Positions 19,771-39,977 of a stretch of 64,000 bases of DNA are shown here, in pieces; positions within the stretch are counted from its first letter, which is position 1, and the number at the start of each line of letters is the position of its first letter. The DNA is taken from the NCBI GenBank assembly GCA_017999985.1, contig JAGNKU010000015.1, positions 1 to 64,000 of the forward strand, read 5' to 3'. Made by a program: the position numbers and the translations under genes. Origin of the DNA: Phycisphaerae bacterium (GTDB taxonomy: Bacteria; Planctomycetota; Phycisphaerae; UBA1845; Fen-1342). Under the pieces are notes generated by a model, which searched no databases, was not told the DNA's origin, and worked only from the letters and a program-made list of their open reading frames with translations.

Positions 19771-20249
19771 CAGTAACTCCTCCTCCGGGCAAAGCGCACC
19801 GCCGGGCTACGCCGCCCGAGCGTTTATTGCGCACACCATTTACGTGCAGGCGACGGCGAGCAGGGCGCGACATGCATCATTGCGGGCTCGGATCGTCGCG
19901 GAGCGCCCGCGCACGTGGCGCAAGATCGCCGATACTCCGTGCTGGAGGTGCCGATCGCGCTAGCAGGGCATACAACAAGTCTGACGTGCCACAACCAGTT
20001 CAACCCCGCGATGCGTTCGCAACCTCCTCCTCTATGACCCCAAGTCTATTGCCCCGGTGGAGATGTGTCAACGAAAAACCCGGGCGCTTGTCGCGATCGA
20101 GCGCGGCGCTGGTCGGCGCCTGGATCTGGCTGCCAAAGCTGCTGTTATGGGACTACTGGCGCCGGGCGTCCGCGGTCCAGCCGCACGCGGAGCCGCCCGT
20201 GGCGAGCGGCTCCGCGCGCGTGAAAGACAGGATCGGCTGCCGGCTTCTG
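19771..20249. other. Non-coding gap with a perfect GC hairpin
   Basis: No gene that I can support in 479 bp. A perfect 10-bp inverted repeat CGCGGAGCCG / CGGCTCCGCG (20186-20195 and 20207-20216) lies 34 bp after the stop of the gene at 20250 and may end its transcript, although no T-tract follows. The remainder should contain the promoter of the PEP-CTERM gene, but I see no convincing -35/-10 pair. Confidence 0.5.
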
Positions 20250-20711
20250 CTACGGACAGACGATCGGCAGCGGGTTGTTGCTCAGCAGCGCTACGAACGG
20301 GTTGATGTCATCGAACGCCACGGCCCCCGAGCCGTTGATGTCGCCGTTGCCATTGGGGCAACCGGGGAACGTCGTCGCGTATGCCGATGGGTTGCTCAGC
20401 CGCAGCACGAAGGCGTTGATGTCGCCGAACGAGACCTGGCCGTCGCAATTCAGGTCGCCGGCGCAGCTCGGCCGCGTGACGAACGCCCAGAAACCGCCCG
20501 TCAATTCGAAGCTGCCGCCACTGAGGATGACGGCGCCGGCGTCGGGCTGGCCGATGGTTCCGGACAGCTCGAAACCGCCGTTGGTGGCGAACATGTCGCC
20601 GCCGCCATCGACCGTGAACCAGCTCAGGTCATACGTGTCCGCCAGGGTCGCGGCCGGACCGAACAGGCCGGCTGCGAGGACGACGGCGGTGAGGATTACG
20701 TTGCGCTTCAT
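20250..20711 (-). CDS. Small exported dockerin-type protein
   Basis: 153 aa with signal peptide ([24 protein letters not shown]) and GGAGGAG upstream. The N-terminal half has the pattern [20 protein letters not shown] ... [12 protein letters not shown], which recurs in planctomycetal secreted proteins. The C-terminal half is a dockerin-like pair of calcium loops ([17 protein letters not shown] and [18 protein letters not shown]). It starts 3 bp after the upstream gene's stop, so the two form an operon; the pair may act together at the cell surface. Confidence 0.87.
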
Positions 20712-20714
20712 CGC

Positions 20715-22271
20715 TTACTCCTCCGCCGCGTTGGCGCTGCCGTGCGCGGGGTAGAGGCTCAGCTCCGCAGGCTGGTCGTACAGCTCGGGGTGCAGGTACT
20801 TGCCGCGTTCGGCGGCCGACTTCTGCTCCTCGACCTGGATGCGGTTCTGCTCGGCATACGGATCGTGCCGGATGCCGGTGACCTGCCAGGAGACCTTGAG
20901 GCCCGGCTGGCCGCCGGCGATGCGGAACGTGTTGTCCAGGATTTCCTCGGCGACGTACACCGGCGCGAAACCGCCGATGCAGGTGAGCTGGTAGCGGAAT
21001 TCCTGGTTGAGCGCCTCGAACCACTCGGGCATCTGGACGACGGCTTCGCCCTGGTCATCGAGCGTGACGTTGCCGTTGTAGATGTTCATCATGTCGGGGC
21101 TTTCGACGAACGAGTGGAGCAGGTACTTGTTGGCGGGATCGAGCGGGTGGTCGATCTTGAACGCGCCGCCGTTCTTGGAAAGCGTGCCGTTCACGTGGAC
21201 GCGGCCGTTGAAGTAGCCCGCGTAGCCGGTGCTGTTGCTGCCGCCGTTGCTGCCATAAATGCCGTAGCCGCCGCCGGTGGACTGGCCGTAGACGCCGGTG
21301 CCGAGGTTGTCGTAGCCGGCCACGCCGGCCGCGCCGGCCGCGCTGGACGAGCCGCGGACACCCTCGCCGCCGGTCGTGTTGTTGTGGCCGTAGACGCCGT
21401 AGCCGTTGCTGGCGCCGGACACGCCTTCGACGCCGGCAGTCGTCCCGCTGCCGTAGACGCCGACGCTGGAGGCGGCGGTCGTCGTGCCCGTGATGGCGTC
21501 GCCATCAGCCGTAGTCACGTCGAGTCTGGCATCCGGTGTGTTGTCGCCGATGCCGACGTTGCCTTCGTCGGTGACGATCAGCCGGTCGCCGCCGGCGTAG
21601 ACGATCCAGTCGCCGGTCGCGCCGTCGAGGTACGTCCAGGCGACCTCCGCCCCACCGGCGCTGTAACCGTAGAACGGCTGACCGCCGGCGCCATCCGTGC
21701 GGATATACATGCCGCCGTAGCCGCTGTTCACCGGGGCTTGGACGCCGAAATACTCGGCGCCCGTGACCGTCGTCGACCGGTTGATGCCGACGAAGCCGGT
21801 GGTGGTGTTATAGGTGTTGCTGCCGCTCTTGGACCACAGGCCGCTGCCGGGTGCGTTGAGGGCGTAGGCGGCGTACGGCGTGGCCGTCAGCTTCTGGCGG
21901 GGGGCGAGGTTTGTGTACGCGCCGGCGCCGGCCGGGTAGCGGACCGAGATCGCCAGCCAGCGGGCGTTGCCGTCGAAGACGGTGCTGCCGAAGTCGAGCG
22001 TGGCCGTGAACAGGCCACCGACGACGGCGACGGGCGCCGGGTTGCCGCTCGCGCCGTCAAACGTGAGCGTCGAGCCCACCTGGTTGCCGAAACTGGCGGC
22101 ATCCCACAACGTGAAGATCATGTCGACGGGGCCGGTGACGGAATTGCCGCTCAGGCGCAACTCGCCTTGGTAGGTGAACTCTGTCCCCGCCGGTGCGGCA
22201 TGAACAACGGGCGCCAGTGCGGCGCCAAGTGCGACCAGACCGATTACTACGACGCGTTTCGCGCGCATCAT
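20715..22271 (-). CDS. Exported tail-fibre-like protein with GVYG repeats
   Basis: 518 aa from ATG 22271 (GGGAGAAGAG upstream; open frame to 22289). Signal peptide MMRAKRVVVIGLVALGAALA. The N-terminal domain (FTYQGELRLSGNSVTGPVDM) is common in exported planctomycete and Bacteroidota proteins. A middle segment (about 225-365) repeats GVYG or GVRG units (VGVYGSG, YGVYGHN, GVRGSS, TGVYGQS, YGIYGSN), as in trimeric fibre shafts. A conserved C-terminal domain follows (FKIDHPLDPANKYLLHSFVE, then a beta-rich part). It ends with a charged tail. It resembles phage fibre and adhesin architecture, but no phage genes are nearby. Likely a surface fibre or adhesin. Confidence 0.75.
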   Translation of the reverse strand: MMRAKRVVVIGLVALGAALAPVVHAAPAGTEFTYQGELRLSGNSVTGPVDMIFTLWDAASFGNQVGSTLTFDGASGNPAPVAVVGGLFTATLDFGSTVFDGNARWLAISVRYPAGAGAYTNLAPRQKLTATPYAAYALNAPGSGLWSKSGSNTYNTTTGFVGINRSTTVTGAEYFGVQAPVNSGYGGMYIRTDGAGGQPFYGYSAGGAEVAWTYLDGATGDWIVYAGGDRLIVTDEGNVGIGDNTPDARLDVTTADGDAITGTTTAASSVGVYGSGTTAGVEGVSGASNGYGVYGHNNTTGGEGVRGSSSAAGAAGVAGYDNLGTGVYGQSTGGGYGIYGSNGGSNSTGYAGYFNGRVHVNGTLSKNGGAFKIDHPLDPANKYLLHSFVESPDMMNIYNGNVTLDDQGEAVVQMPEWFEALNQEFRYQLTCIGGFAPVYVAEEILDNTFRIAGGQPGLKVSWQVTGIRHDPYAEQNRIQVEEQKSAAERGKYLHPELYDQPAELSLYPAHGSANAAEE

Positions 22272-22558
22272 CTCTTCTCCCATTGGCACGGCGTCAGCGC
22301 TGCCGTCCCGTGGCGCGCGAGAGCTGGTGGCGCGGACGCAGACCCAAAGGCTGAGCCCACGTGCCGGCCGCTCCCGCTCATGGAGCGGGGCTGACGCTGG
22401 TGCGTTCAGTTTCCAAACTTTGCCAAAACGGCCCGAATCCTCGCGATTGCACCAGGGTATTACCGCGGATGAACCCCGGATATAGATCGCACGAAAATGG
22501 TACGCATTGCCCGTGCGGTTTTCAAGCGCGCGGTCCGAAAAAGCGAGGTGGCCGGCCG

Positions 22559-23716
22559 CTACGCGCGTTCGACGAGCCGGTCGATGAGGAAGTCCGACTG
22601 TTCCAGCGCGCGGGTCGTGAAGGGGCCGAAGAACTGCCGGACCTCGGCGAAGAGCGCGTCGAAGGCGGCGTGATCCTGGGCGGCGGTCAGGGTGCGCAGC
22701 TCTTCGGCGGCGCGGGCGAAGGCGGCGGTGACCGCGGCGGTGTCGGGGTTGGACATTTGGATCGCGGCGTACAAGGCGGGCGATTGCGCGAAATGGCGCG
22801 CGGTCAGGAGCAGCTCCATCAGGTAGATCGGGGACGTGAACAGCAGCGTGCGGTCAATGGGGACCTGCAACGTCGCGAGGGTCTTGCCCATCACCTCGGT
22901 GGAGAAGTGCACGAGGACCTGCACGATGGACATCGCGCGGTCGTGTTCTTCCGGCGTCGTCTCCATGAGCTCGATGCCGCGCGCGTGCAACATGCTCCTC
23001 AGCCAGGCCAGCCACTGGTCGCCGCGGCCCGGCGTGAGGACCACGCGCTGGCCCTGGAGCGAGTGGACGGTCGGCCCGAAGAGCGGGTGGGTGCCGACGA
23101 CGCTCGCGCGCGACGCGGCGAGCATGGCGCGCAGCGGGCCGGTCTTGATCGAGGTCACGTCCATCAGCAGCGCTTCCGGCCGCACCCGCGGCCCGATGCG
23201 CCGGATGACGTCTTCGGTCACATCGATTGGGACGGCGACGATCACCACATCCGCGACGGCAGCGGCCTCGTCCGGCGTGAGGGCGGTGTCGAGGTCCGCG
23301 ATCATCACCGCGTGGCCGAGGTCGCCGAAGAGCTGGGCGATGCACTGGCCCATGCCGCGCCGGCCGCCGATGACCGCGACGGTGCGTGGCTCGACCTCGA
23401 GCGGCACCTCGGCTTTGAGCGCGGCCTGCCGGTCGCGGCTGGCCCAGAGCACGAGCCGGAAGAGGCTCTCGATCAACTCGGGGTTGAGGCCGAGCGTCAT
23501 GGCGCGCGACCGACGGTCGGCGATGATCTCGCGCTCGCGGTCCAGGTCGCGGATGGGCAGATGGTGCTCGCGTTTGTGCTCGGCGATGTCGGCGATCAGG
23601 CCGTTGCGGCGGGCGAGCAGTTGCAGGATGTCGCGGTCGATGGCGTCGATCATCGCCCGCAGGACGGGCAGCGGGCGAATGGCCGGGTTCTCAGATGTAC
23701 GTTTGGCCTTGGTCAT
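22559..23716 (-). CDS. tyrA: Bifunctional chorismate mutase / prephenate dehydrogenase (T-protein)
   Basis: 385 aa. Residues about 15-95 form an AroQ-type chorismate mutase (MIDAIDRDILQLLARRN, IRDLDREREII); residues about 108-385 form prephenate dehydrogenase (VAVIGGRRGMGQCIAQLFGD, VPIDVTEDVI, VGTHPLFGPTVHSLQGQ, MSIVQVLVHFSTEVMG). The order and the sequence of the dehydrogenase (HPLFGP, SPIYLMELLLTARHFAQ) follow the fused E. coli TyrA. It converts chorismate to prephenate and then to 4-hydroxyphenylpyruvate for tyrosine. It is divergent from aroC, 141 bp apart, so the enzyme making chorismate and the one using it are neighbours. Confidence 0.92.
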   Translation of the reverse strand: MTKAKRTSENPAIRPLPVLRAMIDAIDRDILQLLARRNGLIADIAEHKREHHLPIRDLDREREIIADRRSRAMTLGLNPELIESLFRLVLWASRDRQAALKAEVPLEVEPRTVAVIGGRRGMGQCIAQLFGDLGHAVMIADLDTALTPDEAAAVADVVIVAVPIDVTEDVIRRIGPRVRPEALLMDVTSIKTGPLRAMLAASRASVVGTHPLFGPTVHSLQGQRVVLTPGRGDQWLAWLRSMLHARGIELMETTPEEHDRAMSIVQVLVHFSTEVMGKTLATLQVPIDRTLLFTSPIYLMELLLTARHFAQSPALYAAIQMSNPDTAAVTAAFARAAEELRTLTAAQDHAAFDALFAEVRQFFGPFTTRALEQSDFLIDRLVERA

Positions 23717-23792
23717 CGGGACGGCGCAACCGTAGCGGTCCGCCGCGCGGGCGTCAACGGCGGGGGCAGTTTCGCGAGGCGCGCCCCGGAAT

Positions 23793-23798
23793 TACGAT
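23793..23798 (+). promoter_or_regulatory. Candidate -10 box (TACGAT) of aroC
   Basis: TACGAT lies 59 bp upstream of the aroC ATG; no strong -35 hexamer accompanies it. It is the best AT-containing hexamer in the divergent tyrA/aroC gap. Confidence 0.3.
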
Positions 23799-23857
23799 GG
23801 GTGGGCACAAACGGACACTGCGTGGCCGGATACGGCGGCGCGTCGAGGAGCCAGCGC

Positions 23858-25084
23858 ATGGCGGAGCTGAACTATCGCACGGCAGGGGAGTCGCATGGGC
23901 GGGCCCTGACCGTGCTCATCGAGGGGTTGCCGGCGGGGCTGGCGGTGGACCTGCCGCTCATCAACGGCGAGCTGCGCCGGCGGCAGGGGGGTTACGGGCG
24001 CGGTGCCCGGATGAAGATCGAGCGCGACGAAGTGTTGATCCTGAGCGGCGTCCGCGCGGGGCAGACCATGGGTTCGCCGTTGGTGCTGCAGATTGCGAAC
24101 CGGGATTTTCGCATTGACGACGCGCCCGTGGTGCAGCGCCCGCGGCCGGGGCATGCGGATTTCGCCGGTGCGATGAAGTGGCTGACCACGGATTGCCGGG
24201 AGACGCTGGAGCGGGCCTCGGCGCGCGAGACGGCGGCGCGGGTCGCGGCGGGAGCGCTGGCGAAGTGTCTGCTAAGTGCGTTCGGCGTGCAGTGCGTCGG
24301 CTTCGTGGCCGAGATCGGAACGGTGCGGGCGGACGCGCCGGCGGATGTCGCGCCCGAGGCGCTCGTGGCGGCGCGGGATGGGAACGACGTGTACACGCCG
24401 GACGAGAGCGCGGTGGCGCCGATGCGCGCGGCGATTCGGCAGGCGAAGAAGGACCGCGACACGGTGGGGGGCGTGGTGGAGGTGCGCGTGTACGGCGTGC
24501 CGCCGGGGCTGGGGACGTGCGCGGCGTGGCAGGAGAAGCTGGACGGGCGGCTGATGCAGGCAGTCGGTTCGATCCAGGCGATGAAAGGCGTGGAGATTGG
24601 ACTTGGGTTCGAGGCGGCACGCCGACCGGGCAGCGCGGTGCATGATGCGCTGTACTATGACGCGGCGCAGCGCGACACGGCGAATTTCGGCTTCGTCCGG
24701 CGGTCGAACCGGGCGGGCGGGCTGGAGGGGGGGATGACGAACGGGATGCCGCTCGTGGTGCGCGCGGCGATGAAGCCGATCGCGACGTTGCTGCAGGGCC
24801 TCGACAGCGTGAACCTGGAGACGCGGCAGCCGGAGCGGAGCGCTTACGAGCGCAGCGACGTGTGCGCGGTGCCGGCGGCGAGCGTGGTGGCGGAAAACGT
24901 GGTGGCGTTCGAGGTGGCGCGGGCGTGGCTGCAGAAGTTCGGCGGCGACACGCTGCGCGAGGTGCGGGCGGCGTACGAGTTCTACGCGGCGGCCGTGCGC
25001 GGGTTGGGCGCTGCGCCGGAAGTCACAGCCGGCCGTGGCGGATCATCGAGATCAGCAGCACGAACCCGATCGCGCCGGCGGTGA
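23858..25084 (+). CDS. aroC: Chorismate synthase
   Basis: 408 aa from ATG 23858, with GAGGAG 8 bp upstream; the frame is open far upstream, but the family N-terminus starts here (LNYRTAGESHGRALTVLIEG). Converts EPSP to chorismate using reduced FMN. Other family motifs: GGYGRGARMKIERDEV, SGVRAGQTMGSPL, RPGHADFAGAMKW, ARETAARVAAGALAK, MKGVEIGLGF and RRSNRAGGLEGGMTNG. The last 60 bp overlap the 3' end of the convergent UbiB-like gene, and the final residues are a basic tail of uncertain value. Confidence 0.96.
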   Translation: MAELNYRTAGESHGRALTVLIEGLPAGLAVDLPLINGELRRRQGGYGRGARMKIERDEVLILSGVRAGQTMGSPLVLQIANRDFRIDDAPVVQRPRPGHADFAGAMKWLTTDCRETLERASARETAARVAAGALAKCLLSAFGVQCVGFVAEIGTVRADAPADVAPEALVAARDGNDVYTPDESAVAPMRAAIRQAKKDRDTVGGVVEVRVYGVPPGLGTCAAWQEKLDGRLMQAVGSIQAMKGVEIGLGFEAARRPGSAVHDALYYDAAQRDTANFGFVRRSNRAGGLEGGMTNGMPLVVRAAMKPIATLLQGLDSVNLETRQPERSAYERSDVCAVPAASVVAENVVAFEVARAWLQKFGGDTLREVRAAYEFYAAAVRGLGAAPEVTAGRGGSSRSAARTRSRRR

Positions 25085-28238: not shown

Positions 28239-29195
28239 TCAGTAGGTGAAGTCCGTGGTCCAGGCGACGTCGCGCCCGTCGCCTGACCACTGGCTGTTGT
28301 TGCCCACGAGGTCGACGGCGCCGTCGGACTGCAGCTCGTAGCCCAGTGACTTGAGCGTCTCGGCGGTGGCGTGGCCGTCGAGCCAGAGTGTGCCGGCGCG
28401 CCCCAAGTGGCGCGGATCGGCGGCCGAACGATAATCGGGGAGGTCGGCCATCTCGCCGGTGACGGGGTCGACGCGCGGCGGATCTAGGTTGAAGCCCTCG
28501 TTGCCAAAGCGGGCGGGTTCGGTCTTGGAGTCATCGTCGTATGGTTGGCGGTCGAGCGGGGCGAACGAGGCGGCGGTGCCCATGCCGTCGGCGACGCACA
28601 CCGTGCGCCCGGGGAACTTCACACTGGTGATCTTGACGGGCCACCGCTTGTACGAGGTTTCCACAGCGTCGTCGAGGAGCCGCGAGTTGCCGAGGAACTG
28701 GTAATTGTAACCGTAGCTGCCATTGCGTTCGTCGGTCCAGTTCGGGACGGACGGGCAGACATACCCGCGGTAGGAGTAGTTCTGTTGGTCGCCTGGCTCG
28801 CCGTGCATGTCCTGGACGCCCTTGCAGGCCTGGGGGTCGTCGAAGGGCGGCACGCCGACCGCGCCGCTCATCATGGTCAGAAACGTCGGGCGGAACTTGT
28901 GGCGGCCGTAGACCACGGCATAGGGGTCGCAGCTCTGGCCGGAGAGCTTGGGCAGCCGGCCGGGCGGCAGGACGTCGCGGTTGTCGTTCAGGTAGATGTT
29001 GAGTCCCTGTCCCAGGACACGGAGCTGTGACAGGCAGATGGTCCCGCGGGCCTGCTGGCGGGCGGCGGCGAGTGACGGCACGAGGATGCTGATGAGCAGG
29101 GCGATGATCGCGACGACGACCAGCAGCTCGATGAGCGTAAACGCGGTCAAGCGCGTGAGGCGGCGTGGCGTGGCTGGACAGAGCGATCGTGGCAT
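28239..29195 (-). CDS. Pseudopilin with prepilin N-terminus and H-X9-DG motif
   Basis: 318 aa from ATG 29195; the frame is open to 29249. Basic leader then LTAFTLIELLVVVAIIALLI, the type IV prepilin/type II secretion N-methylation site with Ala in place of the usual Gly before Phe. The globular domain ends with RHLGRAGTLWLDGHA, in which H is followed by 9 residues and DG: the H-X9-DG motif of planctomycetal DUF1559-type pseudopilins. Probably a minor pseudopilin or exported surface protein processed by prepilin peptidase. No secretion machinery genes are adjacent, so it is an orphan. Confidence 0.88.
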   Translation of the reverse strand: MPRSLCPATPRRLTRLTAFTLIELLVVVAIIALLISILVPSLAAARQQARGTICLSQLRVLGQGLNIYLNDNRDVLPPGRLPKLSGQSCDPYAVVYGRHKFRPTFLTMMSGAVGVPPFDDPQACKGVQDMHGEPGDQQNYSYRGYVCPSVPNWTDERNGSYGYNYQFLGNSRLLDDAVETSYKRWPVKITSVKFPGRTVCVADGMGTAASFAPLDRQPYDDDSKTEPARFGNEGFNLDPPRVDPVTGEMADLPDYRSAADPRHLGRAGTLWLDGHATAETLKSLGYELQSDGAVDLVGNNSQWSGDGRDVAWTTDFTY

Positions 29196-29488
29196 GCATG
29201 CACCTGTGGGTCGGCTCCGCCTACCCGGCGACGAAATCCGGGCCGCCACCTTCTGGTCGGTCAGCCAGAGCAGTTCGTCGGGAAGGGCAGAGCCGGCCTG
29301 TCACCTTTGAGGATAGCATTTCGGGCCGGTCAAGCCAATGGTCGCCGTGCACGCCTCGCTTGCTGCCTGTGCGTCGGTGGGCTACACTGCCCATAATTGC
29401 GGCTGGGAAAGACACTTGGCTGTCGTGCGGCACGCAGGATGCAAGGGCCGCCGGTCACGTGGGGCGGGCCGCCGAGACGGTGAACCGC

Positions 29489-32606: not shown

Positions 32607-32635
32607 TTGACAACCGTGGGAGCTTGTCTCATACT
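32607..32635 (+). promoter_or_regulatory. sigma70-type promoter TTGACA-17-CATACT
   Basis: Consensus TTGACA (32607-32612), 17 bp, CATACT (32630-32635). Transcription would start near 32642, about 94 nt upstream of the ATG at 32736. The best promoter match in the window. Confidence 0.8.
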
Positions 32636-32735
32636 TCCGTGCCCGGAAGCGTGCCCGCGCGGCGGACCAGTCGCCGGTGATGCGGCGGCGGCGGGCATGG
32701 CGCGTGTGGCCGGTAGCGGTCAGCAGGAGTGAAGA

Positions 32736-34145
32736 ATGGCCGGTCGTCCCATGAGTCCCTACGGCGGCCAGTCGGGGCTGCTCTACGGACTGATCGCGTT
32801 TGCGTTCGTGAGCGTCGCCTCGCTGGGTCTGTTCGTGTTCCAACTGACCAAGAACAAGGCAGCGGAGAACCGGGCCCAGAGCGCCGAGCAGCGGTTGGAG
32901 CAGTATGGTCAGCCACCGCAGTACTACGCCGATGAGGGCAGTGCGCGCCGGACCAAGGTCTTCACGGTGATGACGGGCGACCTGCAGAAGGTGGCGGCGG
33001 CCGTGACCGGCGTGGAGGAAGACCTGGGGCCGACCGTGGTGGCGAAGGTCGGGCAGGCGATGAAGGACGTCGCCAAGACAGCGCAGGGCGCGGTCAACGC
33101 CAACGATGCGGCGTTGCCGGCGCTGACGGCGCTGAGCGCGGCGTACGCGAAAGAGAAAGCGGCGGCGGCGGACCTGACGCGGCAGGTGGCCGAGCTGCAG
33201 GACCAGACGGCGGCGCTGACCGCCCAATTGAAGACGACGCGCGACCAGTTCGAGTCGCAGACGGCCGCCCTGCGGGATCAACTGGCGCAGGCGCAGAGTG
33301 ACAAGACCGAGGCGCTGGCGGCGAAGGATCGCCAACTGCGCGACGTGCAGGCGTCGCTGGATGCCACGGAGGCCCAGTTGCAGGCCATGAAGCGCGAAGG
33401 CAATATGCTGGTGCGCGACAAGGACATCGAGATCGGGCAGCGTGACGCGCTGATTGCCGAGCTGCAGGACCAGATCCAGGCGCTGAAGCCAGGCACGTTC
33501 GATCCGCGGTCGATCCTGACGAAGGCGGACGGGCGCATCATGCGCGCGATTCCGGGCAGCGACGTGGTGTACATCAATCTCGGGGCCACGAACAAGATGA
33601 AGCCCGGCATGGGGTTCGAGGTCTACGCACCCAATCGCGAGGCCAGCAGCGACCTGCGCGGCAAGGCCTCGATCGAGGTCGTGACGGTGATGGAGGAGAC
33701 GGCGGAATGCCGCGTGACGCGGCGGGCGGCGGGGCAGCCGATCCTCGAGGGCGATCTGGTCGTCAACATCGCGTACGAGCGGAATCGCAGCCCGAAATTC
33801 GTGGTGCGGGGCGATTTCGACTTGAACTATGACGGCGTGATCGACCACAACGGCGTCGAGGAGATGACGGCCCTGATTCGGCAGTGGGGCGGGCAGATCG
33901 CCGAGGATTTGGACGAGTCCGTGGATTACGTCGTGATCGGTCTGCCGCCGGGGACGGGCGAGGCCGCGGTGGGCGCGACGGCGACGGCGGTGGTCCGCGA
34001 CCAGTTGCAGCAGCGGGAGCTGGAGCGGAGCAAGTTCAAGGCGCTGGTGGAGCGGGCGCAGAAGATGTTCATCCCGGTGATCACGCAGAACCAGTTCCTG
34101 TACCTGACGGGCTTCACCGGCGACGCAGCGGTGGCGCGGCGGTAG
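32736..34145 (+). CDS. Membrane-anchored coiled-coil protein with C-terminal BRCT-like domain
   Basis: 469 aa with AGGAG 6 bp upstream. One transmembrane helix (about residues 15-37, LLYGLIAFAFVSVASLGLFV), a linker, a long coiled coil (about 145-250, rich in Leu, Gln, Asp and Lys heptads such as LTRQVAELQDQTAALTAQLK), a small beta domain (about 262-345, GSDVVYINLGATNKMKPGMG), and a C-terminal domain (about 350-465) with the BRCT pattern: FVVRGDF at the start, an IRQWGGQIAEDLDESVDYVV core with GG, then a KALVERAQKM helix and IPVITQNQFLYLTG. BRCT domains bind phosphopeptides or DNA inside cells; finding one on a membrane-anchored protein is unusual. Transmembrane topology is not clear from flanking charges. 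Confidence 0.8.
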   Translation: MAGRPMSPYGGQSGLLYGLIAFAFVSVASLGLFVFQLTKNKAAENRAQSAEQRLEQYGQPPQYYADEGSARRTKVFTVMTGDLQKVAAAVTGVEEDLGPTVVAKVGQAMKDVAKTAQGAVNANDAALPALTALSAAYAKEKAAAADLTRQVAELQDQTAALTAQLKTTRDQFESQTAALRDQLAQAQSDKTEALAAKDRQLRDVQASLDATEAQLQAMKREGNMLVRDKDIEIGQRDALIAELQDQIQALKPGTFDPRSILTKADGRIMRAIPGSDVVYINLGATNKMKPGMGFEVYAPNREASSDLRGKASIEVVTVMEETAECRVTRRAAGQPILEGDLVVNIAYERNRSPKFVVRGDFDLNYDGVIDHNGVEEMTALIRQWGGQIAEDLDESVDYVVIGLPPGTGEAAVGATATAVVRDQLQQRELERSKFKALVERAQKMFIPVITQNQFLYLTGFTGDAAVARR

Positions 34146-34218: not shown

Positions 34219-34346
34219 GTCGAAAATTGTATTGAACCGCCGGGTGGAGAGTGTTAGGTTGCGCGGGTTGAGGGGAGATTGGGCACGTCGCCCTGTCCCG
34301 CCCATGTCTGGCTGCCACATCCGCGGCAGGAGCAGGAGGAGTGAGC

Positions 34347-35081
34347 ATGAAACGACTTTTGGCCTTGGGTCTCGTTTTGTCGTGCGCTGCGGCCGGTCTG
34401 GCCAACTGGACGGACGGGTTTGAGCCGCCCTACGTCGTCGGTCCGATTGCTGGCCAGGGCGGCTGGCAGGGCTGGGGCGGTGACGCGGCCTACACCGGCT
34501 ACGTTACGGACTCGATCGCACGCACCGGCACGCAGTCGCAGGAAGTCTACGGAAATTCGGATTCGGTGCACCAGTACTCCGGGTACACGTCGGGCCAGTG
34601 GGTCTACCGGGCGTACCAGTACATCCCGAGCAGCCTGGTCGGCAAGCAGTACTTCATTTTGCTGAACAAGTACAACGACCCGTCGGGCCCGTTCAACTGG
34701 TCCGTGCAGATCACTTTCGATCCAGCCACCGGCAACCTGTCGGCCGACTGCGGGTCGTCGAACCCGGTCGTGATGCCCTTTGTGAGAGACGAGTGGGTGC
34801 TGATCGAGGCCCAGATCGATCTGGACACCGACTGGGTGCAGGTGTTCTACAACGGCACGCTCCTGGATGATCCGGCCCTGGCCGGGCTGGGCTACCAGTG
34901 GACGAAGGGCGTGTTCGGCGGCGACACGAACGGCCTGCTGAACATTGCGGCGGTCGACCTGTACTCCGGTGCACCGCAGACGCCCGCGGCGACGTCGGTC
35001 TTCTACGACGACATGGCGCTAGTGCCAGAACCGACGTCGATCCTGCTGCTGGGTGTGCTGGCGCTGCTCCGGCGGCGCTAG
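34347..35081 (+). CDS. PEP-CTERM exported protein, 244 aa
   Basis: ATG 34347 is preferred over the in-frame GTG at 34341 because AGGAGGA lies 6 bp upstream. Signal peptide MKRLLALGLVLSCAAAGLA; beta-sandwich body like concanavalin-type lectins (GGWQGWGGDAAYTGYV, VLIEAQIDLDTDWVQVFYNG, FYDDMALV). C-terminus VPEPTSILLLGVLALLRRR is a PEP-CTERM signal. Likely surface-attached after exosortase processing. A TTGAAC at 34232 may be part of its promoter but the -10 is weak. Confidence 0.85.
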   Translation: MKRLLALGLVLSCAAAGLANWTDGFEPPYVVGPIAGQGGWQGWGGDAAYTGYVTDSIARTGTQSQEVYGNSDSVHQYSGYTSGQWVYRAYQYIPSSLVGKQYFILLNKYNDPSGPFNWSVQITFDPATGNLSADCGSSNPVVMPFVRDEWVLIEAQIDLDTDWVQVFYNGTLLDDPALAGLGYQWTKGVFGGDTNGLLNIAAVDLYSGAPQTPAATSVFYDDMALVPEPTSILLLGVLALLRRR

Positions 35082-35791: not shown

Positions 35792-37663
35792 ATGTCGAGT
35801 GATCGTAACCTCCGCTGGCCCATGAGCCTGCTGGGCAGCTTGCTGCTGTTGGCTTTGCTGGCGCAATTTCCCGCCTGCGATGTGCCACCCGCGACGGTCC
35901 CGGACAATAGCGCCGACGGTGGAAACGCAGTGCCCGGCGCGCTGGAAGCGGAGGTGCTTCCAGGTGCATTCATGACCATGCGGGACCCGGCCATCCTGGC
36001 TGGACAGCCGGTCACGGTCGAGTTCACCGGCCCGGCGGGCTTCCGAGCGACGATGGAAGCCTACAAGACAAGGGCGGGCGAGGCCGCCGTGCCGATCCCG
36101 CCGCTGGTGGATGTCGCCACCGGCGAGATGGTGGCGGGCACCCTATCCTACGGTGTGCTCGGCAGCACGCTGCGCAGCACGGTGAACGTCGCGGCGCCGC
36201 CGCCGGCCGAGGATACGCCGCCCGGCGCGGTGCTGCGGATCGTACTCGAGGCCGCGGCCGAGGAGCACGAACGGACCTACGCGGCCATCACGCAGATCCG
36301 CACGGAGCTCGGGGCGAACGCGCCGAATGCGGAGTTGCCCGGCGACATCTTCGCGGAGGGCATTGCGCTGCGGGCGCGGCTGGCGACGTATGACCAGACG
36401 GGCCAGTTTGTGCTTCCATTGCGTGACGGGACGTGGCACACGATGACGGCGGAGGAGATGACGCTGGCGGATCGCTGGCTGGCGTCCCTCATGGATGGGC
36501 TCGCTGAGCAAATGGAGTTGGAGGCGGGATTGCCGACGGCCAAGCTGATTGCGCGGGCGCAGGGCCAGTCGCCGCCGCGACCGCGGATCGACACGATGGC
36601 GCAGCAGGGAGTGCAGCGCGTGCGGCAGGCGATTCAGACCGGGGCCGCGGGTGCGTCGACGCTGGCGGCGGGCGTGGGAATCGGCGTGTGCCTGATCGGC
36701 CTGGCGGTCAACACGCCGGTCGTCGTGGTGATCGGCGGGTTCTGCGCGGTGGCGGGGGCGGCGGCATCGTTCGTGAACGGGGCGGCGGGCGGGACCAACG
36801 CGGATGCTTTTCTGGCACGCGACCCGCGGCGTTTCGACGCGAGCGCGGAAGCGTTGAGCCAGACGGCGCGCTACGGACTCGTGGCGGCATCCGCGGCAGC
36901 CGGGCCGGTTGGCCAGTTGGCCAATGTCGCCAGCCTGGCCGCGAGCAGCAAGGATTTCTATGCCAACGTCCGCGCGATCCGCTGCACGTCGTCCGCACCG
37001 CCGGGGAATAAGAAGAGCCTGACGTACCAGAGCGATGAGTTCTGCGTGGGCGTTACGGGCGGGCAGCCGCCGATCTCGCCGCCGGAGTGCCCGGCGCCCT
37101 CCGGGAGCCTGTTTGTGCGGACGACCACGGAGAATGGTCAGTACAGCGAGTATTGGCTCTGGCCGCCGAATGAACAGGACGGCAAGCCGGTAGGCCTATG
37201 CCGCACGTGGTATGGGGCGGACAAGACGGTGCTGGCGACCCAGGGCTGCCGCGACAGTGACGGCCGCCTGCAGGGGCTCTACCAGGCCTGGAGCCCGAGT
37301 GGCGCGCTGCGGTCGGAGGTCCATTATACGGATGGGCAACTGGACGGCTTGGTATTCGAGTACTACCCGGGCGGCGGAGTGCTGCGCATGGCGGACTACA
37401 AGCCGTTCGGTCCGTTCTCGGCCCCGGACGGGGTCGAATACTACTACGATGAAAACGGTCGCATCGTGCAGGAAACCACGTATGCGGACGGCGTCCGGAA
37501 CGGTCGCTATCGTCGGTACCATGCAGGAAGCTCGGTGGTGTTCCTGGAGGGGTGGTATGTCGATGACAGGTCGGACGGGCACTGGTGCACCTACAATGCC
37601 GACGGCAGTCTGATGCAGGAATGTGTGTACCAACTGGGGCAGTTGGTTTCGTGCGCGCCATAA
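35792..37663 (+). CDS. Probable lipoprotein with YwqK/MORN-type repeats
   Basis: 623 aa from ATG 35792 with GGAGGAG 5 bp upstream. N-terminal signal peptide with a possible lipoprotein cysteine at C29 (LLALLAQFPACD), although FPAC is a weak lipobox. A middle hydrophobic stretch (about residues 295-335, AGASTLAAGVGIGVCLIGLA) could be a membrane hairpin. Residues about 465-620 hold MORN/YwqK-type repeats: GRLQGLYQAWSPSGALRSEV, LDGLVFEYYPGGGVLR, GVEYYYDENGRIVQE, GRYRRYHAG and DGHWCTYNADGSLMQE. Such repeats occur in toxin-associated and surface proteins, but no partner gene is seen. Function unknown. Confidence 0.75.
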   Translation: MSSDRNLRWPMSLLGSLLLLALLAQFPACDVPPATVPDNSADGGNAVPGALEAEVLPGAFMTMRDPAILAGQPVTVEFTGPAGFRATMEAYKTRAGEAAVPIPPLVDVATGEMVAGTLSYGVLGSTLRSTVNVAAPPPAEDTPPGAVLRIVLEAAAEEHERTYAAITQIRTELGANAPNAELPGDIFAEGIALRARLATYDQTGQFVLPLRDGTWHTMTAEEMTLADRWLASLMDGLAEQMELEAGLPTAKLIARAQGQSPPRPRIDTMAQQGVQRVRQAIQTGAAGASTLAAGVGIGVCLIGLAVNTPVVVVIGGFCAVAGAAASFVNGAAGGTNADAFLARDPRRFDASAEALSQTARYGLVAASAAAGPVGQLANVASLAASSKDFYANVRAIRCTSSAPPGNKKSLTYQSDEFCVGVTGGQPPISPPECPAPSGSLFVRTTTENGQYSEYWLWPPNEQDGKPVGLCRTWYGADKTVLATQGCRDSDGRLQGLYQAWSPSGALRSEVHYTDGQLDGLVFEYYPGGGVLRMADYKPFGPFSAPDGVEYYYDENGRIVQETTYADGVRNGRYRRYHAGSSVVFLEGWYVDDRSDGHWCTYNADGSLMQECVYQLGQLVSCAP

Positions 37664-37953: not shown

Positions 37954-38871
37954 CTAGCGACGACGCAGCGCCAGCAGGCCCAAGGCCAGCAACGCCAGGC
38001 TGCCCGGCTCCGGCGTGACGTTCACGTTGTCGATCAGCGTGAACAGCAGCGCGGCGTCATTGACGTCCGTCGACGAGGTCGCGTTGATGTCACTGTGGCC
38101 GAAGAAGATGTTCCCGCCGCCGAGTGTGACAGTGTTGAGATCGATGGTGGCCATCAGCAAGCCATCAACGTGCCAGGTCAGGGTCGTGCCGGCCTTGGTG
38201 ATTTGGACGAAGTGCCACTCCATGCCGGCGCTGCCGACGGCCGTGACGCCGGTCTGCTGGGGGAAGAGGGCGAGCTGCGCCGCCGGCGCCGTGTTGCTGC
38301 CAAACCCGGCGAAATAGGGGTTCGTGTTGTTACGCGTGGTGTACGGATACACCGGGCTGCCATCGGGGTAGCCGGTGGTCGCGGCGGTGGAATAAGCGCG
38401 CCAGTCGGCCGATGAGCCGCCGTCGCCGGTGCCCGCAAACCAGACGCTGTCCTGCACGCCGCCGGGCCACTGGGGGGTCACGCCGGCGGTGCCGACGCCG
38501 AAGGTGGACAGGTTGGTCGAGCCGCTGCCGCCGCCGGGGAACGGCCCGTTGAAGTTGGCCCACCAGTCGAACTCGACGACGTAGTCACCGGCGAAGCTCT
38601 GCCCGGTCGGCGAGACGCTCATGCCGCTGAAGATGCCGTTTTCCAAATTGGCCTGGAGCTTGAGGCCGCGGGTGCCGGTGCCGTTGGGGGCGACCGGAAT
38701 GCCGACGGTGGAGTAGTCGAAGAAGAAGTCAGCGGCGGCGTCGGACGGTCCGTTGTTGAGCGTCCAGCTCCCCGTGGAATCGACCTCGAAATCCTGCATG
38801 TAGAGCGAGCCGTAGGCCGGTACGGCCACGAGCAGCACGCCCAGCGCAAGCGCACACCAGTTCGATCGCAT
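37954..38871 (-). CDS. PEP-CTERM exported protein with lectin-like fold, 305 aa
   Basis: Start ATG 38871 begins the signal peptide (MRSNWCALALGVLLVAVPAYG) and has GGAGAGGAG upstream; the open frame extends to 38979. The body is a concanavalin/LamG-like beta-sandwich (MEWHFVQITKAGTTLTWHVD, GGGNIFFGHSDIN, TLIDNVNV). C-terminus TPEPGSLALLALGLLALRRR is a PEP-CTERM signal. Surface function unknown; it resembles the plus-strand gene at 34347. Confidence 0.88.
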   Translation of the reverse strand: MRSNWCALALGVLLVAVPAYGSLYMQDFEVDSTGSWTLNNGPSDAAADFFFDYSTVGIPVAPNGTGTRGLKLQANLENGIFSGMSVSPTGQSFAGDYVVEFDWWANFNGPFPGGGSGSTNLSTFGVGTAGVTPQWPGGVQDSVWFAGTGDGGSSADWRAYSTAATTGYPDGSPVYPYTTRNNTNPYFAGFGSNTAPAAQLALFPQQTGVTAVGSAGMEWHFVQITKAGTTLTWHVDGLLMATIDLNTVTLGGGNIFFGHSDINATSSTDVNDAALLFTLIDNVNVTPEPGSLALLALGLLALRRR

Positions 38872-39296
38872 TGGGTTCTCCTCTCCTCTTCCAGCATGCC
38901 GCCGAGCGGTCGGCGGTCTCGAGACGTGGCCCTGGACTGGCGGACCAGCCCCGGACCGGGTAGCGGCCCGCGGGAACACATGTCCCCGACGAGCCGCCGA
39001 CAGTTTCCTATTTCCATCCTAATGTTTCAGGGCGCCGGGTCAATAGAAACTTTGGGACGGCCGGGGGGCGGCAGGCCGGCGGCGTGGCGGTGGAGAGTCT
39101 CAGATCTCATTCTGCCGGCCCCCGGACCCGGATGGTCCGGCTGCAAGTCCGGGGCGTTTTGCCACATAGGGAGTTATAGCGGTTCGCCGGGCTTGCGGTT
39201 GAAGTTGCCCACAGCCGCCCGCTGCGCGTTGCGGTTGCGTCGCGGCACGGGGAATTCCGCCCTTCCGCTTCACAGCGGGCAATCGGGGAAAGCGAT
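38872..39296. other. Gap with a promoter, otherwise no gene seen
   Basis: 425 bp. It contains the promoter candidate at 39016-39043 for the PEP-CTERM gene and a leader of about 138 nt. I see no supported gene or strong hairpin in the rest. Confidence 0.5.
39016..39043 (-). promoter_or_regulatory. Promoter candidate TTGACC-16-TAGGAT
   Basis: Minus-strand TTGACC (39038-39043), 16 bp, TAGGAT (39016-39021), in a locally AT-richer stretch. It would drive the PEP-CTERM gene at 37954-38871. Confidence 0.6.
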
Positions 39297-39977
39297 TCAG
39301 GGCGCGAGCTTCACGGTGCAGGTGGCCTGGGCGGAGACCACGCGTTTCGTCAAATAGTCGACGAACGTGGCGCGGACCGTGATCTCCGTGTGCTTGGGTG
39401 GTTCTTTCGGCCAGGGGCACTTGATCGTGTAGTGGCCCGTCCAGAGCTTGCCGCTCCAGAGCTTGCCGACCTGGTCGACCGGCACGAAATATTCGCCGAT
39501 GAGTTGGCCCCCGGGGGCGGCAAGGTCGTAGAGCTGAATGCGCACGTCGCCGGCGACCTTGATGACGTCGCCGTCCTTGTCCAGCGGGCGGAGATAGACG
39601 GTCACGCCGTCGTCGCCGGGTTGGCCGTCGTAATTGCCGCCGCCGGTGAGCTTGTCGATGACGAGCGTCTCCGGATAGAAGACTTTCTTGAGGTCGTCTT
39701 CCGAAATGGAGCGCGCGATGCGGAGTTGCTCGTTGACCTGGTCGAGGGCGGCCTTCTGGGCGACGAGCTGATCGTCCTTCTGCTTAAGTTTGGTATTGAG
39801 GTCGCTGATCTCACGCCGCAGGGAGATCTCGACGGGCGATTGACAGCCGGTGGTGAGGGAGAGCGCGGCGAGCAGAGCCAGCGGCCAAAGCCCCGAGCGC
39901 AGAGCCTGCGCATTGTGGCGTGGTCCGGCGACGACGCCGCCGGCACGGTGTGCCGTGGGGGGTGTTGCCGTGCACAT
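39297..39977 (-). CDS. Probable lipoprotein with coiled coil
   Basis: 226 aa. A hydrophobic segment LWPLALLAALSLTTGC ends in a lipobox-like cysteine C45. A 29-residue N-terminal extension precedes it. A short coiled coil follows (about 50-85, ISDLNTKLKQKDDQLVAQKA), then a beta-rich domain (DGVTVYLRPLDKDGDVI, VRIQLYDLAAPGGQLIGEY, ATFVDYLTKRVVSAQATC). No family is recognised. It follows clpP at 12 bp on the same strand, so it belongs to the tig-clpP operon; a role in envelope quality control is possible but unproven. Confidence 0.72.
   Translation of the reverse strand: MCTATPPTAHRAGGVVAGPRHNAQALRSGLWPLALLAALSLTTGCQSPVEISLRREISDLNTKLKQKDDQLVAQKAALDQVNEQLRIARSISEDDLKKVFYPETLVIDKLTGGGNYDGQPGDDGVTVYLRPLDKDGDVIKVAGDVRIQLYDLAAPGGQLIGEYFVPVDQVGKLWSGKLWTGHYTIKCPWPKEPPKHTEITVRATFVDYLTKRVVSAQATCTVKLAP

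Follow-up and report, generated by a model that had tools for sequence, protein, structure and literature searches.

BRCT domains are typical of DNA repair and checkpoint proteins, and the known bacterial examples belong to cytoplasmic enzymes that act on DNA, such as LigA. In the BRCT domains that bind phosphopeptides or DNA, a serine or threonine before the glycine of strand 1 is part of the phosphate pocket; RFC1 and LigA are two proteins whose BRCT domains bind DNA. Two other described proteins can be compared with the gene reported here. FlgT is a periplasmic protein with a C-terminal beta-barrel domain (PF16538). MreC (PF04085) combines an N-in signal anchor with a coiled coil and extracytoplasmic beta domains. 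Literature searches returned no description of the present family or of any membrane-anchored or extracytoplasmic bacterial BRCT protein, and searches for BRCT together with planctomycetes, an extracytoplasmic location or the EF-hand gave nothing relevant.

The gene lies in a window of 64,000 nucleotides (the whole stretch of DNA that was analysed) from a Phycisphaerae bacterium. A preliminary description, made from the sequence alone, had recognised one transmembrane helix, a coiled coil, a small beta domain and a BRCT-patterned end. This observation is confirmed (Table 1), and its remark that a BRCT-ended membrane protein is unusual is shared here. The fold is known but the architecture is new, and the compartment is probably new as well.

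Table 1. Features of the gene and its product, with coordinates in the window
Feature	Residues	Position	Strand	Basis or remark
Gene, membrane-anchored coiled-coil/FlgT_C-like/BRCT protein		32736..34145	+	469 aa, stop TAG
Sigma-70-like promoter TTGACA-17-CATACT		32607..32635	+	10/12 matches; consensus match only
Shine-Dalgarno AGGAG		32725..32729	+	6 nt upstream of ATG, direct reading
Transmembrane signal anchor	about 15–37	32778..32846	+	predicted N-in/C-out
Coiled coil	126–248	33111..33479	+	AF2 helix and heptad periodicity
Beta-barrel, FlgT C-terminal domain fold	261–347	33516..33776	+	Pfam FlgT_C, AF2 model and structure search
BRCT domain	354–460	33795..34115	+	profile, profile-profile, AF2 model, structure search
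EF-hand-like acidic loop DLNYDGVIDHNGVE, between strand 1 and helix 1	362–375	33819..33860	+	D-x-[DNS]-x-[DNS] in 67/89 relatives
Extended BRCT helix 2	418–443	33987..34064	+	longer than LigA's; alignments and AF2 models

Domain Architecture

The full-length AlphaFold model was built with 69 relatives and has a mean pLDDT of 84.7. From the N to the C terminus, it consists of the transmembrane helix, helical segments, a 123-residue helix, the beta domain and an alpha/beta C-terminal domain. In the long helix (about 122–123 residues), L/I/V/M/F residues recur with a periodicity of 3.54 residues, and across the family the peak lies at 3.56, with a power of 2.24 compared with 0.21 in shuffles. The spacing between the transmembrane helix and the beta domain has a median of 228 residues (5–95% range 217–242) in 69 Phycisphaerae-type members, and it is 202–229 residues in 19 of 20 distant members.

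The best structural matches of the beta domain are to the C-terminal domain of FlgT (8z5n, Z 10.1; 3w1e, Z 9.7). The Pfam FlgT_C profile was matched weakly by 27 of 48 members (best E 2.2e-7), the window copy scoring 19 bits against a cut-off of 27. F1-ATPase barrels rank close behind FlgT, so descent from FlgT is not proved from the fold alone. Such barrels, which share this common fold, also filled the list when the full-length model was used for the structure search. For this reason, the C-terminal domain was modelled alone. Unlike FlgT, the protein carries its beta domain on a coiled-coil anchor and a BRCT domain after it, and no flagellar gene neighbourhood was seen. The likeness to MreC concerns the build, namely a predicted N-in anchor, a coiled coil, beta domains probably outside the cytoplasm and a charge bias of the same sign. 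It does not extend to the beta domain, which is of a different kind, to the BRCT domain or to an mre operon. PF04085 was absent from the Pfam matches of the protein and its relatives, and the genome's own MreC is encoded separately (G000:C22).

Identity and Peculiarities of the BRCT Domain

Searches of Pfam, NCBIfam and the PDB with the window sequence by itself returned BRCT only under threshold, which is not decisive without relatives. Its match to Pfam BRCT (PF00533) had an E value of 0.055–0.063 and 13.9–14.2 bits, below the cut-off of 21.3 bits. The profile was matched by the C-termini of 64 of 79 relatives (best 6.1e-11). The cut-off was exceeded by the compact distant member L139 (39.4 bits, 7.4e-10) and by four more distant members (L135, 32.6; L136, 28.5; L134, 23.6; L127, 21.6 bits). 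The profile search that the preliminary description had proposed as a check thus succeeded with the relatives but not with the window copy alone. In whole-genome scans with PF00533, family members ranked next after LigA in several genomes, and some of them exceeded the cut-off (e.g., G009:C340). Profile-profile comparison with 23 LigA BRCT domains of related genomes gave a probability of 98.1% for the long form of the domain and 99.1% for the compact form.

Structure prediction, the second check that had been proposed, leads to the same fold. The C-terminal domain modelled alone (AF2) reached a pLDDT of 86.2 and a pTM of 0.76, and 49 of the best 50 PDB entries that it matched are BRCT domains, counting the BRCT-like motif N of Dbf4 (LigA, Z 8.6; Rad4, 8.4; RFC1, 8.4). 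The GG core, the aromatic and hydrophobic positions and the segment IPVITQNQFLYLTG, from which the pattern had been recognised, all find their place in this fold. G385/G386 form the GG turn before strand 2 and are invariant in alignment A3, F454 of QFL is the aromatic residue of helix 3 (nearly invariant in alignment A1, invariant in A2), and IPVITQNQFLYLTG forms the segment of strand 4/helix 3, where LigA has GVKVLSEADFETLI. The order of strands and helices, the 'TDxVVxG' strand and the 'xIPVLTxxxFLxxxG' end are likewise shared with LigA. Because of the Pfam scores of the relatives, the LigA profile match and the AlphaFold model, the C-terminus can be regarded as a true BRCT fold, and this question is settled.

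The domain differs from that of LigA in several respects. Two features mark BRCT domains that bind phosphate or phosphopeptides, the serine or threonine before the strand-1 glycine and a lysine in helix 2, and neither is conserved in the family. At position 358, in the phosphate pocket, 9 of 89 members have S or T and 80 have lost it, whereas all 23 LigA sequences have T there. The GSKLxKA start of the lysine-bearing helix 2 of LigA is neither conserved nor aligned in the family. In the class to which the protein belongs, an EF-hand-like loop and a long helix 2 are inserted. The loop is present in Phycisphaerae and in many other members; compact members of other clades are without it. The complete 12-residue EF loop, D-x-[DNS]-x-[DNS]-G-x5-[DE], occurs in 8 of 89 members, most of them having no acidic residue at position 12, and Pfam EF-hand profiles match only 2 of 79 C-termini, weakly (best 0.072). 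Since the complete pattern is found in so few members, metal binding by the loop is only hypothesised. In three members (L036, L042, L045), the helix-2 region of the BRCT domain contains a long acidic insertion rich in E, D and S. Finally, a coiled coil anchored in the membrane carries this BRCT domain, which probably lies outside the cytoplasm.

Membrane Topology

The orientation was judged from the charge bias, that is, the net charge on the N side of the transmembrane helix minus that on the C side, with MreC, AtpF and TatA from the same clade as calibration standards. Their values were +2.2 for MreC (N-in/C-out) and −2.5 and −2.8 for AtpF and TatA, respectively (both N-out/C-in). The family mean is +1.64, with 69 of 89 members positive, 11 equal and 9 negative. 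The bias of the family therefore has the sign of MreC and is opposite to that of AtpF and TatA, which supports an N-in/C-out orientation. By this rule, the coiled coil, the FlgT_C-like domain and the BRCT domain would probably lie outside the cytoplasm. The charges of the window copy balance (+1 versus +1), its free amino terminus tipping toward N-in; this balance and the nine opposite biases, partly from distant clades, count against the predicted topology. In the preliminary description, an exported C-terminus with disulfides had been named as a finding that would speak against its reading. Export is indeed probable, but the members have 0–3 cysteines each and no conserved pair.

Distribution and Gene Neighbourhoods

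The gene is present as a single copy in its own genome, and relatives were found in 57 of 61 genomes from its order or family. When the phylum was searched with the two C-terminal domains (E<=1e-12), about 240 of 294 genomes carried it. Its distribution covers nearly all of Planctomycetota, with several families being without it. Two larger counts were set aside. The domain-only count of 293/294 at E<=0.001 is inflated by the BRCT domain of LigA, most of the weak matches checked being LigA-sized frames, and the full-profile count of 371/392 may be inflated by coiled-coil matches. The named close relatives, from a contig scan with the close-relative profile, are all planctomycetes, mostly Phycisphaerae, and a plasmid search yielded no relatives. 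One distant genome seemingly has two adjacent divergent FlgT_C-like/BRCT copies (G110:C1:1689414-1691999).

In the window, the gene is flanked by genes for a glycosyltransferase and a PEP-CTERM-like protein. Some Phycisphaerae loci have it adjoining the gene of the exonuclease VII small subunit, and in some a double-zinc-ribbon gene, which we take to be ComF-like, is next door. In distant clades, it stands divergent beside polA, coaE and rho; 8 of 20 such loci adjoin polA, with coaE beyond (L126, L128, L129, L130, L131, L132, L139, L143), and 5 more adjoin coaE. In five distant loci (L133, L134, L135, L141, L142), tatC is the next co-directional gene. These polA, coaE, rho and tatC neighbours represent conserved positions rather than operons, with tatC perhaps an exception. 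In Planctopirus limnophila, polA is Plim_3011 (PMC10632474), and the orthologue in this species may adjoin it; the main text of that paper gives no essentiality for the orthologue.

Possible Functions

The reading preferred here, with a probability of about one half, is that the protein is a periplasm-spanning envelope tether on which the FlgT_C-like and BRCT domains are displayed as a protein-docking tip. It would have a structural role in the cell envelope of planctomycetes, with an MreC-like build. A short positively charged N-terminus would remain in the cytoplasm, one helix would anchor the protein in the inner membrane, and the coiled coil, about 18 nm long and self-associating, would span the periplasm, with the beta-barrel and the BRCT domain at its distal end. 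The latter would serve as a protein-protein docking module and not as a reader of phosphate or DNA, and in this class a metal ion (Ca2+) in the EF-hand-like loop would probably determine its conformation. The partner docked by the tip may lie in the periplasm, the peptidoglycan layer or the outer membrane, and docking could tether or space the two membranes or recruit an envelope machine. The domains, their folds, the conservation across the phylum and the loss of the phosphate-pocket residue are computational results, whereas orientation, self-association, metal binding, partner and role are inferred from them. Such a periplasmic ruler or tether would agree with the predicted topology, with the coiled coil and with the conserved distance from the membrane to the tip. 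The beta domain is most similar to that of FlgT, whose periplasmic location also counts for an envelope role, as do the loss of the S/T-G motif and of the GSKLxKA start, the single copy in the genome and the wide presence among relatives and in the phylum. The EF-hand-like loop in 67/89 members would suit a Ca2+-rich outside. The scarce acid at EF position 12 and the weak Pfam EF-hand matches count against the step that involves a metal, and the polA, coaE and rho neighbours would suit a DNA-linked role too, which counts against an envelope tether.

The evolutionary scenario can be offered only tentatively. A BRCT domain may have moved outside the cytoplasm in planctomycetes and become the docking tip of a nearly phylum-wide, envelope-spanning ruler. 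On the way, its phosphate pocket would have been lost and, in some classes, a metal-binding loop acquired. If true, the BRCT fold would have found a new use outside the cytoplasm. The periplasm of planctomycetes is enlarged, their classical division machinery is reduced or absent, and they rely on many genes that are specific to the phylum and have no known function (PMC10632474, PMC11958385). An envelope protein that has recognisable domains, occurs as a single copy and is conserved almost throughout the phylum would be a concrete candidate for this unexplained biology.

An unlikely alternative is that the protein is oriented N-out/C-in and that a cytoplasmic BRCT domain tethers DNA, the replication or repair machinery or phosphoproteins to the membrane. 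It would agree with the setting of the known bacterial BRCT domains, on cytoplasmic DNA enzymes such as LigA, with the divergent polA, coaE and rho genes of distant clades and with the exonuclease VII gene that adjoins it in some Phycisphaerae; the charge balance of the window copy decides neither way. The preliminary description had suggested tethering of DNA or phosphoproteins, and the analysis does not bear this out from the cytoplasmic side. The charge bias of the family has the sign of MreC, the S/T-G motif with its phosphate-pocket residue and the GSKLxKA start are not conserved, and the beta domain has its nearest match in a periplasmic protein. Moreover, the polA, coaE and rho neighbours are divergent and therefore not co-transcribed with the gene.

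It is even less probable that the protein assists protein export or the assembly of membrane proteins as an accessory factor docked at the Tat or Sec translocase. Single-pass proteins with periplasmic domains that assist Sec, e.g., YfgM/PpiD, are described in PMC9643414, and the co-directional tatC of the five distant loci points in the same direction. However, neither the window nor most of the Phycisphaerae and other loci examined show this linkage, and the protein has no chaperone or isomerase domain. A periplasmic receptor, in which the exported BRCT domain would hold incoming or extracellular DNA for uptake, is very improbable: the structure search places the domain close to the DNA-binding BRCT domains of RFC1 and LigA, and the ComF-like neighbour of some loci would suit it, but the phosphate-pocket S/T and the lysine-bearing helix are not conserved, the locus has no competence operon, and phylum-wide conservation suits a housekeeping role better than competence.

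Promoter and Other Genes of the Window

The promoter of the gene had been considered the best of the window. This holds in part, since the site shares its score of 10/12 with two others in the 60 kb scanned (all but 20001-24499). Several nearby reading frames were also noted. Two exported proteins, at 34341-35081 (+) and 37954-38979 (−), end in a hydrophobic stretch followed by RRR, like PEP-CTERM sorting ends. Between them, a lipoprotein-like protein of 623 aa at 35792-37663 (+) has MORN_2 repeats near its C-terminus (PF07661, 9.6e-13). The pseudopilin-like protein at 28239-29249 (−) has an N-methylation motif slightly under the Pfam cut-off and is similar to large planctomycete families of pseudopilin-like proteins. 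A small lipoprotein-like ORF at 39297-39977 (−), with the sequence TGCQSPVEI and a short coiled coil, adjoins a clpP-like ORF.
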